Source of the DNA: Jiangella ureilytica
GTDB taxonomy: Bacteria; Actinomycetota; Actinomycetes; Jiangellales; Jiangellaceae
Assembly: GCF_004348545.1 (NCBI RefSeq)
Contig: NZ_SMKL01000061.1
Location: forward strand, 1-35,974
Length of the DNA: 35,974 bases
Reading direction: 5' to 3'
This document shows positions 6,299 through 10,160 of the stretch, one piece after another; the stretch's first letter is position 1; the number at the start of each line of letters is the position of its first letter. The notes below the pieces were generated by a model. That model had not been told where the DNA came from and made no database searches. It saw only the letters and a list, made by a program, of their open reading frames with translations. The position numbers and the translations under genes are program-made.

Positions 6299-7337
6299 GG
6301 CCCCCGGCGAGCACCGGCAGAGCGGCCTCGGCGAGGCGGGCACGGCCGGCGTCGGTGAGGTGCAGGTGGTCGCCGGAGTCGTAGGCGGGCAGCAGGCGGC
6401 CCGGCCGGGCCGGGTCGCGCAATGCGGCGTCGAAGTCGGCGACGCCGTCGAGGTCGGCCGCCGTGCGCAGGTGGGTGTTGGCCGCCTGCCGGATCGCCTC
6501 GCGGGCCGGCGTCCAGCTCGCGGCACCGCTGAACGGGGTCATGGTGGCGCCGACGACGGCGAGACCGCGGGCCCGCGCGCGGGCGACCACCTCGTCGTAG
6601 GCGGCGATCAGCTGCCCGGCCGCCGTCACGCCGCGGGAGAGGTCGTTGATCCCCTCGAACAGCATCAGCGTGTGCACGCCCGGCTGGCTCAGCGCGTCGC
6701 GCTCCAGCCGGCTCAGCAGTGCCGGGCCGAAGCCGTCGACGGTGACGCGGTTGCCGGCCATGCCCGAGTTGAGCAGCGCGAACGGCAAGCCGCCGGGCGA
6801 CGCGCGCAGCGCCGCAGCCACTCGGTCCGGCCAGCGCAGGTTCCGGTCGGGGACGTGGCCGTCGCTGTCGGTGAGGGAGTCGCCGACGACCACCACGGCG
6901 CCGTCGACATCGGGCCGGTCGAGCGTCAGCCGGTCGAGGAAGAACCAGTGCAGCACCCGCTCGGTGCCCGCGGCCGAGGTCACGACCGTTGTCTGCGACG
7001 AGCGCAGGTGACCCGTCACCGCGTCCACGACCCCGGCCACGGAGACGCTGACGACGACGTCCGTGCCACCCGCCACGGGGAACGACGGCACCGGGTCGCT
7101 CACCGCGAGCCCGCCGGCCGGCACCGTCACCGAGACGGCGCCACCGTCGAACGTCACCGCGCGCTCGCCGACGGCGACCGGCCCGAACGTCACCGGCGCC
7201 GTCCCGAACACGTTCGACAGCCGCAGCCGCAGACCGTCGCCGCCGATGCTGGGCCGGACCACCATGCGGATGGTCGCGTCCGCCAGCCGGACGTCTTCGA
7301 GCCATGCCGTCGCCGCCGTCCACACACCCACCGTCAC
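6255..7337 (-). CDS. SGNH/GDSL-family hydrolase
   Basis: A 360-residue esterase/lipase-type hydrolase with all four SGNH blocks: GDSLTDS (nucleophile Ser154), the NSGMAGN block (Gly192 and Asn196 region), EGIND (Asn231) and DHLH near the C-terminus (Asp323, His326). An N-terminal beta-rich domain of about 140 residues precedes the catalytic fold. No signal peptide is obvious, so it may be cytosolic. The GTG start has GGAAAGGGG upstream. Its 3' end overlaps the phosphotransferase pseudogene on the other strand. Relatives include carbohydrate deacetylases and sugar esterases; the position next to a sugar-acid locus makes such a role plausible but unproven. Confidence 0.88.
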   Translation of the reverse strand: MTVGVWTAATAWLEDVRLADATIRMVVRPSIGGDGLRLRLSNVFGTAPVTFGPVAVGERAVTFDGGAVSVTVPAGGLAVSDPVPSFPVAGGTDVVVSVSVAGVVDAVTGHLRSSQTTVVTSAAGTERVLHWFFLDRLTLDRPDVDGAVVVVGDSLTDSDGHVPDRNLRWPDRVAAALRASPGGLPFALLNSGMAGNRVTVDGFGPALLSRLERDALSQPGVHTLMLFEGINDLSRGVTAAGQLIAAYDEVVARARARGLAVVGATMTPFSGAASWTPAREAIRQAANTHLRTAADLDGVADFDAALRDPARPGRLLPAYDSGDHLHLTDAGRARLAEAALPVLAGGLISPIAARRPRSPA

Positions 7338-7356
7338 GCGCGGGCCCCTTTCCGGA

Positions 7357-7362
7357 TATAGT
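7357..7362 (+). promoter_or_regulatory. Candidate -10 box of the aro leader transcript
   Basis: TATAGT fits the actinobacterial TANNNT -10 pattern and ends 7 bases before the GTG of the leader peptide, so transcription could start at or next to that codon. No strong -35 box is visible. Confidence 0.45.
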
Positions 7363-7369
7363 TCAGCTC

Positions 7370-7438
7370 GTGGTCGCGGTTCGTCGGTATCCGTATTTTG
7401 CGCAGGCTCCGGGTGGAGCCGGGCGTGTCATGCGCTGA
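7370..7438 (+). CDS. Putative leader peptide with Tyr-Pro-Tyr-Phe
   Basis: A 22-codon reading frame, GTG to TGA, encoding VVAVRRYPYFAQ and ten further residues. The aromatic run is written TAT CCG TAT TTT; A/T-ending Tyr and Phe codons are rare in this GC-rich window, so three together stand out. The frame ends between the two arms of the first hairpin, as in classical amino-acid leader peptides, and the next gene makes the first enzyme of aromatic amino acid synthesis. A ribosome waiting for charged Tyr or Phe tRNA at 7388-7399 would reach into the left arm at 7405. There is no good ribosome site; leaderless translation is likely. That the peptide is translated is inferred. Confidence 0.55.
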   Translation: MVAVRRYPYFAQAPGGAGRVMR

Positions 7439-7487
7439 CCGACGACCCACCCGGAGCCAGCTGGGCAGAGACATCTCGTCTCTGCCC
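7405..7487 (+). promoter_or_regulatory. Putative attenuator of DAHP synthase
   Basis: There are two perfect hairpins in tandem. The first pairs 7405-7416 with 7447-7458 (12 bp, GGCTCCGGGTGG with its complement) and its left arm lies inside the leader peptide. The second pairs 7463-7472 with 7478-7487 (10 bp, GGGCAGAGAC, 5-base loop) and looks like a terminator, although only TT follows it. GGCTCC at 7405-7410 can instead pair with GGAGCC at 7415-7420. CTCTGC in the last arm can also pair with GCAGAG at 7542-7547 next to the ribosome site, so control could be at translation. A strong antiterminator pairing between the two hairpins was not found by eye. Confidence 0.55.
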
Positions 7488-7523
7488 TTCGTCATGAGAC
7501 GGGCCGGCTCGCAGGCGATCCGA

Positions 7524-7535
7524 CGGGACGTCCCG
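7524..7535. promoter_or_regulatory. 12-bp perfect palindrome upstream of DAHP synthase
   Basis: CGGGACGTCCCG is a perfect palindrome 27 bases before the DAHP synthase start, between the terminator-like hairpin and the ribosome site AGGAG (7546-7550). It is a possible protein-binding site or a small stem. Confidence 0.3.
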
Positions 7536-7561
7536 CTCGTTGCAGAGGAGACGTTGCACCC

Positions 7562-8632
7562 ATGTCCGAACCCCAGTCCCCCACCGGCGACCTGCGCATC
7601 GTCGGCTTCCAGCCGCTCATCACGCCCGCGGGCATGCTCGTCGAGCTGCCGATGGACGAAGAGCACGCCGCGCTCGTGCGGTCCAGCCGGGCCGAGGTCC
7701 GCCGCATCATGGCCGGCGACGACGACCGCCTCATGGTCGTCGTCGGCCCGTGCTCGGTGCACGACCCGGTGGCGGCGCTCGACTACGCCCAGCTGCTCAA
7801 ACCGGTGGCTGACGAGCTGCGCGACGACCTCGCCGTCGTCATGCGCGTGTACTTCGAGAAGCCCCGGACGACGGTGGGCTGGAAGGGCCTGATCAACGAC
7901 CCCGGCCTGGACGAGACGTTCGACGTGCAGCGCGGCCTGCGCATCGCTCGCGAGCTGCTGTTCGAGGTGCTCGGCGCCGGGCTCCCGGTGGGCTGCGAGT
8001 TCCTCGAGCCGATCAGCCCGCAGTACATCGCCGACACCGTCTCGTGGGGCGCCATCGGGGCGCGCACGCCGGAGAGCCAGGTGCACCGCCAGCTCGCGTC
8101 CGGCCTGTCGATGCCGGTCGGCTTCAAGAACGCCACCAGCGGCGACGTCCAGGCGGCCATCGACGGCTGCACTGCGGCCGCGCACGGGCACGTCTTCTTC
8201 GGCGTCGACCACGACGGGCGCGCGGCCGCTGTCAGCACCGCCGGCAACCCCGACTGCCACGTCATCCTGCGTGGCGGCAGCGGCGGTCCGAACTACGGCC
8301 CCGAGCACGTCCTCGACGCGCTCGCGCTGCTGCACAAGGCGCAGCTGCCGGAGCGGCTGGTCATCGACGCCAGCCACGGCAACAGCGGCAAGGACCATGA
8401 GCGGCAGGCCGTCGTCACCGGCGAGATCGCCGGGCAGATCGCGGCCGGCCAGCGCGGCATCGCCGGGGTGATGCTGGAGAGCTTCCTGGTGGCCGGGCGG
8501 CAGGACATCGGAAGCACGCCGCTGGTCTACGGCCAGAGCGTCACCGACGCGTGCATGAGCTGGGAGACGACCGAAGGCCTGCTCGGCGACCTGGCCGCGG
8601 CGGTGCGGGCCCGGCGCACGGCGGCGAGCTGA
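7562..8632 (+). CDS. aroG: 3-deoxy-7-phosphoheptulonate synthase, class I
   Basis: DAHP synthase joins phosphoenolpyruvate and erythrose 4-phosphate in the first step of the shikimate pathway, in the cytosol. The 356-residue length and the motifs VVGPCSVHDP, EKPRTTVGWKG, GARTPESQVHR, GFKNATSGD and IDASHGNSGKDH mark the class I (AroF/G/H) type, close to the 350-residue E. coli enzymes. The start is ATG with AGGAG 11 bases upstream. The gene stands alone, preceded by a putative Tyr/Phe leader-peptide attenuator, so expression is probably tied to aromatic amino acid supply. Many actinobacteria also hold a class II enzyme, and which role this one fills cannot be told here. The exact paralogue (aroF, aroG or aroH) is uncertain. 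Confidence 0.95.
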   Translation: MSEPQSPTGDLRIVGFQPLITPAGMLVELPMDEEHAALVRSSRAEVRRIMAGDDDRLMVVVGPCSVHDPVAALDYAQLLKPVADELRDDLAVVMRVYFEKPRTTVGWKGLINDPGLDETFDVQRGLRIARELLFEVLGAGLPVGCEFLEPISPQYIADTVSWGAIGARTPESQVHRQLASGLSMPVGFKNATSGDVQAAIDGCTAAAHGHVFFGVDHDGRAAAVSTAGNPDCHVILRGGSGGPNYGPEHVLDALALLHKAQLPERLVIDASHGNSGKDHERQAVVTGEIAGQIAAGQRGIAGVMLESFLVAGRQDIGSTPLVYGQSVTDACMSWETTEGLLGDLAAAVRARRTAAS

Positions 8633-8646
8633 GCGACCGCGACGGG

Positions 8647-9240
8647 TCACGGGGCGAGCCCGCGCTGGACGGTGAGGGTGGCGAGCAGCGCGGGCAGGGC
8701 GGGGAAGAACAGCGGGACGGCGGCCGGCGTCGTGAGCCAGCCGCCGACGGCCAGTAGCACGACCAGTGCCGCCACCGCCGCCGTCGCCAGCGGCCGCCGC
8801 CACGCCACCTCCGCCGTGACCTGCCACGACCGCACCACCGGCAGGTCGACGTGCGCGACAACCGCGGGCAGCTGCAACAGCGTCGCTGCGTACCCGGCCG
8901 CGAGCACGGCCATCCCCCATGCCAACGGGGTCGACCGCGACAGCAGCAGGTAGAACACGACCACCCAGACGGTCAGGATCGGTACGCCCAGCACCAGCTG
9001 CGACGACCGCAACGACGACCGCCAGACGGCCCAGAAGTCGTGCCACAGCCGCGGCGAACGATTCAGCACGTACGCCCGCAGCACGGCGTACAGCGCGGCC
9101 GTGGCCGGCGCCAGCCCGAACAGCACCAGCCCGGCCAGCACGCCGAGGAGCCACAGCAGGTTGAGGGCGGCCAGCCGCACGGGCCAGTCCAGGTACCCGT
9201 ACAGCCGGCCGAACCGTCCGCCGACCTCGATCTCAGCCAT
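8647..9240 (-). CDS. DUF624 (YesL-like) membrane protein
   Basis: A protein of about 197 residues with four to five hydrophobic spans, starting MAEIEVGGRFGRLYGYLDW. The GRLYGYLDW-LNLLW opening is typical of DUF624/YesL proteins, which are found in carbohydrate ABC-transport and polysaccharide-use operons and whose molecular role is unknown. It is the last gene of the minus-strand operon after the enolase-superfamily and DapA-like genes. The ATG at 9240 has GGGAGG only 3 bases away. An alternative GTG at 9258 overlaps the upstream stop as GTGA and would add six residues, so the start is uncertain. The 14-base gap to the convergent DAHP synthase stop holds no terminator. Confidence 0.8.
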   Translation of the reverse strand: MAEIEVGGRFGRLYGYLDWPVRLAALNLLWLLGVLAGLVLFGLAPATAALYAVLRAYVLNRSPRLWHDFWAVWRSSLRSSQLVLGVPILTVWVVVFYLLLSRSTPLAWGMAVLAAGYAATLLQLPAVVAHVDLPVVRSWQVTAEVAWRRPLATAAVAALVVLLAVGGWLTTPAAVPLFFPALPALLATLTVQRGLAP

Positions 9241-9254
9241 GGTCCTCCCGAGCG

Positions 9255-10160
9255 TCACAGCCTCAAGGCCGTCAGGATGTCATCCAGCAGGGCTCGGCCG
9301 CCCGCGTCCAGCGTCTTCGCCGGCAGCCGGACGGTCGTGTGCTCGATGATGCCGCGGCGCACCAGCACCTCCTTGTGCACTGCCCACGCGATGCCCTGCT
9401 GCAGGCCGTGCACGATCAGCGGCAGCAACCGGGCGAACGCCTCGCGTGCCTCCGCCCGCCGTCCGGCGCGCCAGTCGGCCAGAATCGGCCCGAGCAGGTC
9501 GGGGAACTCGCAGGCCGGCATGGTCCCGATCGAGCCGCGCGCGTACTCGTCCAGCACGAACTGCGCGTTCTGCCCGCCCAGTACGGCGAAACCCCCGTCC
9601 TCGTTGGCGACGGCATCCGCGACGGCGCCGACCTTGGGCACCGTCGGCGGCGCCTCGACCTTGACCGAGGTGACGCCGTCGAGCTTGCTCAGCTCGACGA
9701 TCAGCGCCGGCGACATTGCCACACCGGTGACGCCGGGCGCGTCCTGCACCATGACCTCGGTGCCGGCGGCGGCGGCGAACTCGCCGAGGTGGCCGTAGAA
9801 CTCGACCAGCTGGTCCGGACCCGGCTTGACCATGAACGGCGGCAGCACCATGAGCGCGTCGGCGCCGCCGGACGCCGCCTCACGGGCCTGCTCGAGCGCC
9901 GTCACCGACGATGTCCCGTTCACCCCGGCGACCACCGGGACTGCGGTCCCGACGACGGCCAGTACGTCGCGGAGGATCTTCTGGCGCTCCTCCAGCGTCA
10001 GCGCGAACCCCTCGCTGGCCATGCCGAACACGGCGACGCCGTCGACGCCGGAGGCCAGCTGGAACTCGACCAGCCGGCGCAGCCCCGGCCGGTCCAGGGC
10101 GCCGTCGGGGAGGAAGGGAGTGGCCAGGATGGGGACCAGGCCGTGGACGGTATGACTCAT
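9255..10160 (-). CDS. DapA-family lyase/dehydratase (sugar-acid type)
   Basis: A 301-residue member of the dihydrodipicolinate synthase/N-acetylneuraminate lyase family, class I aldolases with a TIM barrel. Lys167 in SVKVEA is the Schiff-base lysine, and GMASEGFAL (46-54) takes the place of the GTTGE loop. The segment normally reading YNVP, whose Tyr is the acid-base residue of DapA, reads QDAP (139-142), so true DapA activity is unlikely. With dehydratases on both sides, a role on 2-keto-3-deoxy sugar acids (KDG aldolase or 5-keto-4-deoxyglucarate dehydratase type) is the best inference. The ATG overlaps the upstream stop as ATGA, so it is translationally coupled to the enolase-superfamily gene. 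Confidence 0.87.
   Translation of the reverse strand: MSHTVHGLVPILATPFLPDGALDRPGLRRLVEFQLASGVDGVAVFGMASEGFALTLEERQKILRDVLAVVGTAVPVVAGVNGTSSVTALEQAREAASGGADALMVLPPFMVKPGPDQLVEFYGHLGEFAAAAGTEVMVQDAPGVTGVAMSPALIVELSKLDGVTSVKVEAPPTVPKVGAVADAVANEDGGFAVLGGQNAQFVLDEYARGSIGTMPACEFPDLLGPILADWRAGRRAEAREAFARLLPLIVHGLQQGIAWAVHKEVLVRRGIIEHTTVRLPAKTLDAGGRALLDDILTALRL

Follow-up and report, generated by a model that had tools for sequence, protein, structure and literature searches.

The class I 3-deoxy-7-phosphoheptulonate (DAHP) synthase gene of Jiangella ureilytica is very likely preceded by a real and functional leader-peptide attenuator. Such an element had been proposed in a first-pass annotation of the same 35,974-nucleotide stretch of DNA (hereafter the window), and the proposal is supported by the conservation of its aromatic codons and hairpins in orthologous loci. 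The system is probably a leaderless, ribosome-mediated attenuator of the type described for aroR of Corynebacterium glutamicum, because leaders of Corynebacterium, including one (L280) adjoining a published aroR primer site, have matching anatomy.

Leader region and neighbouring genes

A short frame containing codons for end products of the pathway lies ahead of a gene of that pathway, and its translation is predicted. The peptide encoded by the frame at 7370-7438 is VVAVRRYPYFAQAPGGAGRVMR. The features of the region, all on the forward strand, are as follows.

7357..7362, +: -10-like box TATAGT, with 7 nt between the box and the GTG; leaderless promoter with a presumed start site
7370..7438, +: leader peptide frame, GTG 7370 to TGA 7436-7438, 22 codons plus TGA (sequence, codon bias)
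7382..7388, +: 5' arm of helix P0, pairing with 7438-7444; candidate anti-antiterminator (covariation)
7388..7399, +: sensor codons TAT 7388-7390, CCG, TAT 7394-7396, TTT 7397-7399
7405..7420, +: local hairpin P1, GGCTCC/GGAGCC, 7405-7410/7415-7420; excludes P2
7405..7416, +: 5' arm of the 12-bp hairpin P2; candidate antiterminator (conservation)
7438..7444, +: 3' arm of P0 (covariation)
7447..7458, +: 3' arm of P2 (conservation)
7463..7487, +: P3, perfect 10-bp terminator-like hairpin, arms 7463-7472/7478-7487 (conservation)
7496..7538, +: post-terminator hairpin region, GAGACGGG 7496-7503 with CCCGCTC 7532-7538 (RNAalifold)
7506..7510, +: GGCTC, remnant copy of the P2 5' arm, which can pair with the P2 3' arm in sister genera
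7545..7550, +: Shine-Dalgarno sequence GAGGAG of the DAHP synthase gene (by eye)
7562..8632, +: class I DAHP synthase gene, ATG 7562 (TIGR00034)

The anatomy described in the first-pass annotation was recovered at these positions: a 22-codon frame with TAT CCG TAT TTT in a genome that avoids TAT and TTT (the codon counts below agree), a -10 box seven bases ahead of the GTG, a stop codon inside the loop of a perfect 12-bp hairpin, and a perfect 10-bp terminator-like hairpin next to it. The following gene had been taken for the first enzyme of aromatic synthesis, and its product scores 492.6 bits against the class I DAHP synthase model TIGR00034 (cut-off 173.2). The same genome also encodes a class II DAHP synthase (PF01474), as do 21 of the 22 genomes searched, including all 12 of the own genus and G012; C. 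glutamicum, which served as control, has one too. In an Rfam search of the window no family reached its gathering score, and none had E<=1 within 7330-7600. On the reverse strand, a GDSL-type lipase/acylhydrolase gene (PF13472; 6255-7337) is divergent from the leader, with its start about 20 bp from the -10 box, and a DUF624 membrane protein gene (8647-9258) is convergent with the DAHP synthase gene.

Conservation and codon usage

Of 40 genomes covered by a protein search, 21 had the class I DAHP synthase gene; the own family, with 22 genomes, accounted for 20 of these. The leader, its TANNNT box at the equivalent place and both hairpins were present at 19 of the 20 own-family loci (window counted), with GTG or ATG as start codon, whereas the twentieth, L019, is unreadable owing to a run of N over the leader region. 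Thus, the check on orthologues that the annotation had asked for showed aromatic codons and hairpins to be kept at all 19 readable own-family loci. L021, of another family, has an MTNRWYAYFSLALEGPASN leader and both hairpins in altered sequence.

The leader uses rare codons more than chance would allow. Across the 19 own-family leaders, TAT and TAC occur in a ratio of 30 : 2 and TTT and TTC in a ratio of 19 : 0; the DAHP synthase genes of the same 19 loci have TAT 0 : TAC 97 and TTT 0 : TTC 165, and 17 open reading frames of the window have TAT 7 : TAC 155 and TTT 3 : TTC 211. A similar count in 141 other leaders gave TAT 167, TAC 7, TTT 147 and TTC 31.

It is very improbable that the peptide itself, as an arrest peptide or small protein, is the product and the RNA structure incidental. 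The residues APGG do recur in many families, as such a product would lead one to expect, but their codons are the P2 5' arm, and both arms change together in L021 (GGCTCTGGAGG/CCTTCAGAGCC); moreover, the leaders listed range from 13 to 29 residues and have little in common beyond Phe.

Distribution of the leader

A wider survey covered 237 regions upstream of DAHP synthase genes, comprising named loci (the best 80 of 587 matches) and further loci drawn from a set of 393 genomes belonging to the class, of which 77 gave a match at E<=1e-60, and from three samples at family level, where the gene was found in 101 of 121, 22 of 61 and 38 of 61 genomes. With a leader defined by at least three aromatic residues within seven and a TANNNT box ahead of the start, 153 of the 237 regions were positive, compared with two of 237 reverse complements and one of 237 shuffled controls. 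The 237 regions include five duplicate loci (L118/L172, L125/L180, L145/L237, L146/L238 and L154/L197), and the 153 positives contain at least three non-actinobacterial ones (L068, L081 and L086); L011 and L012 carry the leader yet fail the three-aromatics rule, and L167, which could not be oriented, was left out. Among the best 80 of 587 matches, leader-bearing genera include Glycomyces, Mycobacterium, Williamsia, Rhodococcus, Pseudonocardia, Amycolatopsis, Dietzia, Kribbella, Arthrobacter, Microbacterium and Micromonospora, among others.

An explanation of the frame as a chance occurrence beside an ordinary promoter and terminator is hardly credible; it would suit the single copy in the own genome, but is contradicted by the conservation, the codon bias and the gene association.

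Class I DAHP synthase genes without a rule-passing leader were also observed (L022, L025, L031, L032 and 23 loci of family f17). None of these 23 f17 loci, from the 393-genome sample, passed the leader rule; the same family has the leader before chorismate mutase in other genomes, and a swap of the regulated gene is possible. Separately, proteobacterial class I DAHP synthase genes (L055, L058, L079 and L083, from Xanthomonas and relatives, and L095-L097) follow frames very rich in Phe, Tyr and Trp (e.g., FYFWYY) with no leaderless box, which probably represent an independent attenuator.

Leaders ahead of chorismate mutase genes

A covariance model of the leader, built from 19 leaders with no gene information, had matches in 59 of the 393 genomes. 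Forty of these matches precede class I DAHP synthase, and 18 lie in genomes without a class I DAHP synthase match (17 from family f17, the other being G014 in the own family); the last one, in G365, precedes a Cys/Met-metabolism enzyme and is probably false. Behind all 18 leaders lies a gene whose product passes the Pfam cut-off for a chorismate mutase type II domain. In three cases this domain stands alone; in the other 15 it is fused to a DAHP-synthase-like one, which scores under its own cut-off in L321 and L324. All 18 leaders have a TANNNT box with the frame starting about 7 nt after it.

The fusion loci are L319-L322, L324, L326, L329 and L331-L337 in family f17 and L323 in G014, and their DAHP-synthase-like domain is shortened. 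Because the GPCS motif is absent in L320 and L323, the two sequences inspected, the first domain of the fusions may be inactive or regulatory. At L325, L328 and L330, a stand-alone chorismate mutase behind the leader is followed by a membrane-protein-like frame (AzlC-like by eye).

Amino acid signal

The annotation had named Tyr and Phe together as the amino acids sensed; the Phe part of this claim stands, and Tyr as an equal sensor does not, being secondary only. A Phe residue at a fixed place, with A, P, G or S two residues later, was found in 208 of 211 leaders from several families (the first 193 chosen for aromatic residues, the last 18, which are covariance-model hits, not so chosen, and a few non-actinobacterial rows removed by hand), and its codon was TTT in 200 and TTC in eight of the 208. 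Six of the 18 leaders not chosen for aromatic residues lack Tyr altogether. Within the own family, Phe TTT is retained in 19/19 leaders; L011 and L012, which belong to the own genus, have lost the Tyr at residue 7, and L015-L018 and L020 that at residue 9, this second Tyr being replaced by Arg in sister genera. As Phe is near-invariant while neither Tyr is invariant, the leader sequences indicate that Phe is the common signal and that Tyr, or Trp in other families, is an addition. In the accessible text of PMC11802643, aroF transcription in C. glutamicum, downstream of the aroR leader, is reported to rise under Phe limitation and not with Tyr.

RNA structure

The annotation had described the 12-bp hairpin with a terminator-like hairpin after it; a reading as one pause hairpin plus a terminator is too simple, since the 12-bp hairpin P2 competes with P0 and P1. 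These helices are mutually exclusive, in that P0 and P1 exclude P2, and P0 and P2 each covary. In 19 aligned sequences, 89.1% of the cells of P0 were paired and three of its seven pairs had changed on both sides (e.g., C-G in 11 and U-A in 5), although a partner-swap test was weaker (82/2000). P1 had 98.2% of its cells paired with zero changes on both sides, and a measure of further pair types in the covariation test of P0 and P1 was not above shuffles (362/500). P2 had 99.6% of its cells paired, with three of 12 pairs doubly changed, every one from the distant L021; it recurs elsewhere in different sequence, such as GTTGGCTCTGGAGG/CCTTCAGAGCCAAC and GCCGGCCCTGGTG/CACCAGAGCCGGC in other families. 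For P3, 92.6% of the cells were paired in an alignment with two visibly misaligned rows. The position of the ribosome would select between P0/P1 and P2.

P2 ends at 7458 and P3 starts at 7463, so that they are 4 nt apart in the window and have no base in common. The P3 5' arm starts 0-6 nt past the P2 3' arm motif in 127 of the 140 sequences where this motif could be assigned; the other 22 of 162 lacked an assignable one, and the count omits all 34 sequences of a class without P3. In the latter class, with an FWF leader (Rhodococcus/Amycolatopsis type), the P2 3' arm can pair directly with a 5'-arm copy located behind it. P3 in the window is itself GC-rich and is followed by TTCGTC (7488-7493), with no real T run; longer true T runs stand behind P3 in Corynebacterium relatives. 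Further downstream, the hairpin region 7496-7538 was predicted by RNAalifold on 18 sequences, with a partner-swap result of 0/2000.

Proposed switch mechanism

In the preferred reading, that of an aroR-type attenuator, transcription would start at or near the GTG at 7370, with translation of the leader beginning at the very 5' end of the RNA. Under a shortage of charged tRNA-Phe (and probably of tRNA-Tyr too in this genus), the ribosome would wait at the rare TAT and TTT codons and cover the P0 5' arm and part of P1, so that the 12-bp P2 could form and transcription would proceed into the DAHP synthase gene. When the tRNA is plentiful, the ribosome would clear the frame; P0 and P1 would then form, or the ribosome would occupy the loop of P2, and with P2 absent P3 would terminate part of the transcripts. 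The direction of the switch is adopted by analogy with published relatives, and P3 would be the terminator, its disturbance by P2 being a presumed step.

Several observations were counted against this scheme. When a ribosome was placed on the first aromatic codon in folding calculations, pairing of the P3 5' arm fell below its ribosome-free level in every class tested (own-family mean pairing 0.30 versus 0.64), which is the opposite of a textbook antiterminator; therefore, P2 does not sequester a P3 arm. Energy tests revealed no consistent switch by which the 12-bp hairpin acts on the abutting terminator-like hairpin. Among the 203 leaders in which the spacing was measured, 160 have the Phe codon 5 nt away from the P2 5' arm motif and 199 have it 4-6 nt away; a ribosome waiting at Phe would therefore cover about five bases of that arm. 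The presence of TTCGTC alone behind P3 also weighs against the scheme, and the class without P3 must have another way of ending the OFF state. One candidate, in which RNAfold prolongs P2 in the window by way of TTTTGC as far as the P3 5' arm, was rejected as the switch: a ribosome at TAT or TTT would cover those bases, and sister genera do not keep the pairing.

The same spacing could be read with the roles reversed: the Phe-waiting ribosome would block P2 by sitting on the lower half of its 5' arm, and since P2 stacked on P3 would aid termination, its loss would lead to readthrough. Such a reversal is improbable. It agrees with the 4-6 nt between Phe codon and arm in 199 of 203 leaders and with the short gap between P2 and P3 in 127 of 140, but it leaves no clear job for P0 and P1, seven P2 base pairs would remain free, and the mutational model of ilvBNC, in the portion of PMC11857589 available, assigns the opposite role to the corresponding hairpin.

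Attenuation might instead act on translation, through a chain of helices from the P2 3' arm to the 5'-arm copy, the next segment and the Shine-Dalgarno region, in which stalling would make the DAHP synthase gene's ribosome binding site accessible. Own partners had better energies than swapped ones in the own family (3:4 1/2000 with bulges permitted, 4:5 0/2000, 5:6 5/2000) and in parts of other classes, and the 3:4 hairpin is retained in the class without P3. In an ungapped test, the own-family 3:4 pairing of the P2 3' arm with the 5'-arm copy did not stand out (own 17.1, other-class 17.8, shuffled 16.6), and it comprises only 5 bp in the window. However, removal of the P2 3' arm raised Shine-Dalgarno accessibility in 21 and lowered it in 29 of 141 sequences (the test is weak for the class without P3, where that arm is misassigned in several sequences), and a ribosome at Phe raised it in 32 and lowered it in 31 of 187, the WYAYF class being an exception (0.26 to 0.41). 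In addition, 4:5 is unsupported in three classes and 5:6 in one, some of the swap-test windows have 4-6 nt in common, tests of this kind are inflated by relatedness, and the Corynebacterium leader L240 has no visible 5'-arm copy behind P3. Four further helices reaching the Shine-Dalgarno region were thus set aside as the main switch, given that swap tests agree partly and accessibility calculations do not, and translational control is kept as an unlikely rival.

As a more general and rather doubtful idea, the aroR-type attenuator could be one Phe-reading cassette, widespread in Actinobacteria, that moves among aromatic genes (class I DAHP synthase, DAHP-synthase-like/chorismate mutase fusions and chorismate mutase), and in which an antiterminator lying flush (0-6 nt) on an intact terminator, rather than claiming one of its arms, might control termination in the region where the RNA exits, through stacking or steric contact.

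Comparison with known attenuators

Ribosomes stall on codons of the end product in the pheA and trp leaders of Escherichia coli, where the antiterminator is built with one of the terminator's arms. Stalling on end-product codons would be common to these leaders and the window, whose antiterminator takes no terminator arm; accordingly, P2 uses no arm of P3 and the classical trp-type arrangement of four segments was not found. Both E. coli leaders are named in the accessible text of PMC11802643.

The closest similarities in gene context are to the aroR-aroF attenuator of C. glutamicum (Neshat et al. 2014, via citing papers; Mentz et al. 2013, PMC4046766), with which, as far as these sources are available, the window has in common an aromatic leader with Phe, class I DAHP synthase as the next gene and the spacing of a leaderless -10 box. 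The accessible text of PMC4046766 reports Phe-Tyr-Phe in the aroR leader and the detection of short leader transcripts. In the genomes, the gene was present in 33 of 121 Corynebacterium genomes, and 28 of 29 loci examined had a leader with RFYF or RFYY. At L280, the stretch printed as the aroR primer (PMC7356990) lies directly ahead of the start of a leader with Phe-Tyr-Phe, and at L282, another Corynebacterium locus, the rule failed but an GCAGGCTCCGGG frame with Tyr-Tyr is present. The aroR-type loci of Corynebacterium, including L280, have, by eye, a GGCTCCGG/CCGGAGYC helix and an abutting terminator hairpin, as in the window, where a Phe/Tyr leader, class I DAHP synthase, leaderless spacing and a GGCTCC helix abutting a terminator hairpin occur together. 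The differences are that the window leader has Tyr-Pro-Tyr-Phe in place of Phe-Tyr-Phe, that its GC-rich P3 is followed by TTCGTC whereas L280 has TTTTTTGTTT, and that, unlike aroR, it has extra structure between P3 and the gene.

For the hairpin arrangement, the nearest precedent is the ilvBNC model of C. glutamicum, with hairpins abutting at a shared trinucleotide. A three-hairpin model with mutational support has been proposed for this system in the portion of PMC11857589 available, and its near-leaderless leader, its order of anti-antiterminator, antiterminator and terminator, its control codons near the antiterminator 5' arm and its abutting hairpins are as in the window. Its hairpins share a GCC trinucleotide, whereas the core helices of the window, 4 nt apart, share no base; thus, the boundary trinucleotide common to terminator and antiterminator that marks an ilvBNC-type fast attenuator was not found here.

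The annotation had regarded a leaderless design as unusual for an attenuator, but it is ordinary in Actinobacteria, judging from the available text on ilvBNC (PMC11857589) and on Streptomyces lividans, for which several leaderless leader peptides are described (PMC8079986). The trp and leu leaders of Streptomyces and Corynebacterium are likewise leaderless, rich in regulated codons and placed before the first pathway gene, for another amino acid (accessible parts of PMC1262725 and PMC8079986). According to the available text of a 2005 survey (PMC1262725), no conserved RNA structures were seen upstream of Phe and Tyr operons in Actinobacteria, and a Phe-attenuator family beyond C. glutamicum aroF was not found in print in a search that lay mostly outside the subscription literature, including the 2014 aroR paper. 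Taken together, the comparison suggests a widespread Phe attenuator over many actinobacterial genera, acting on two kinds of aromatic-pathway enzymes. If so, it would be relevant to strain engineering of aromatic products, and it would offer a large natural data set for the question of how a non-overlapping helix controls a terminator.
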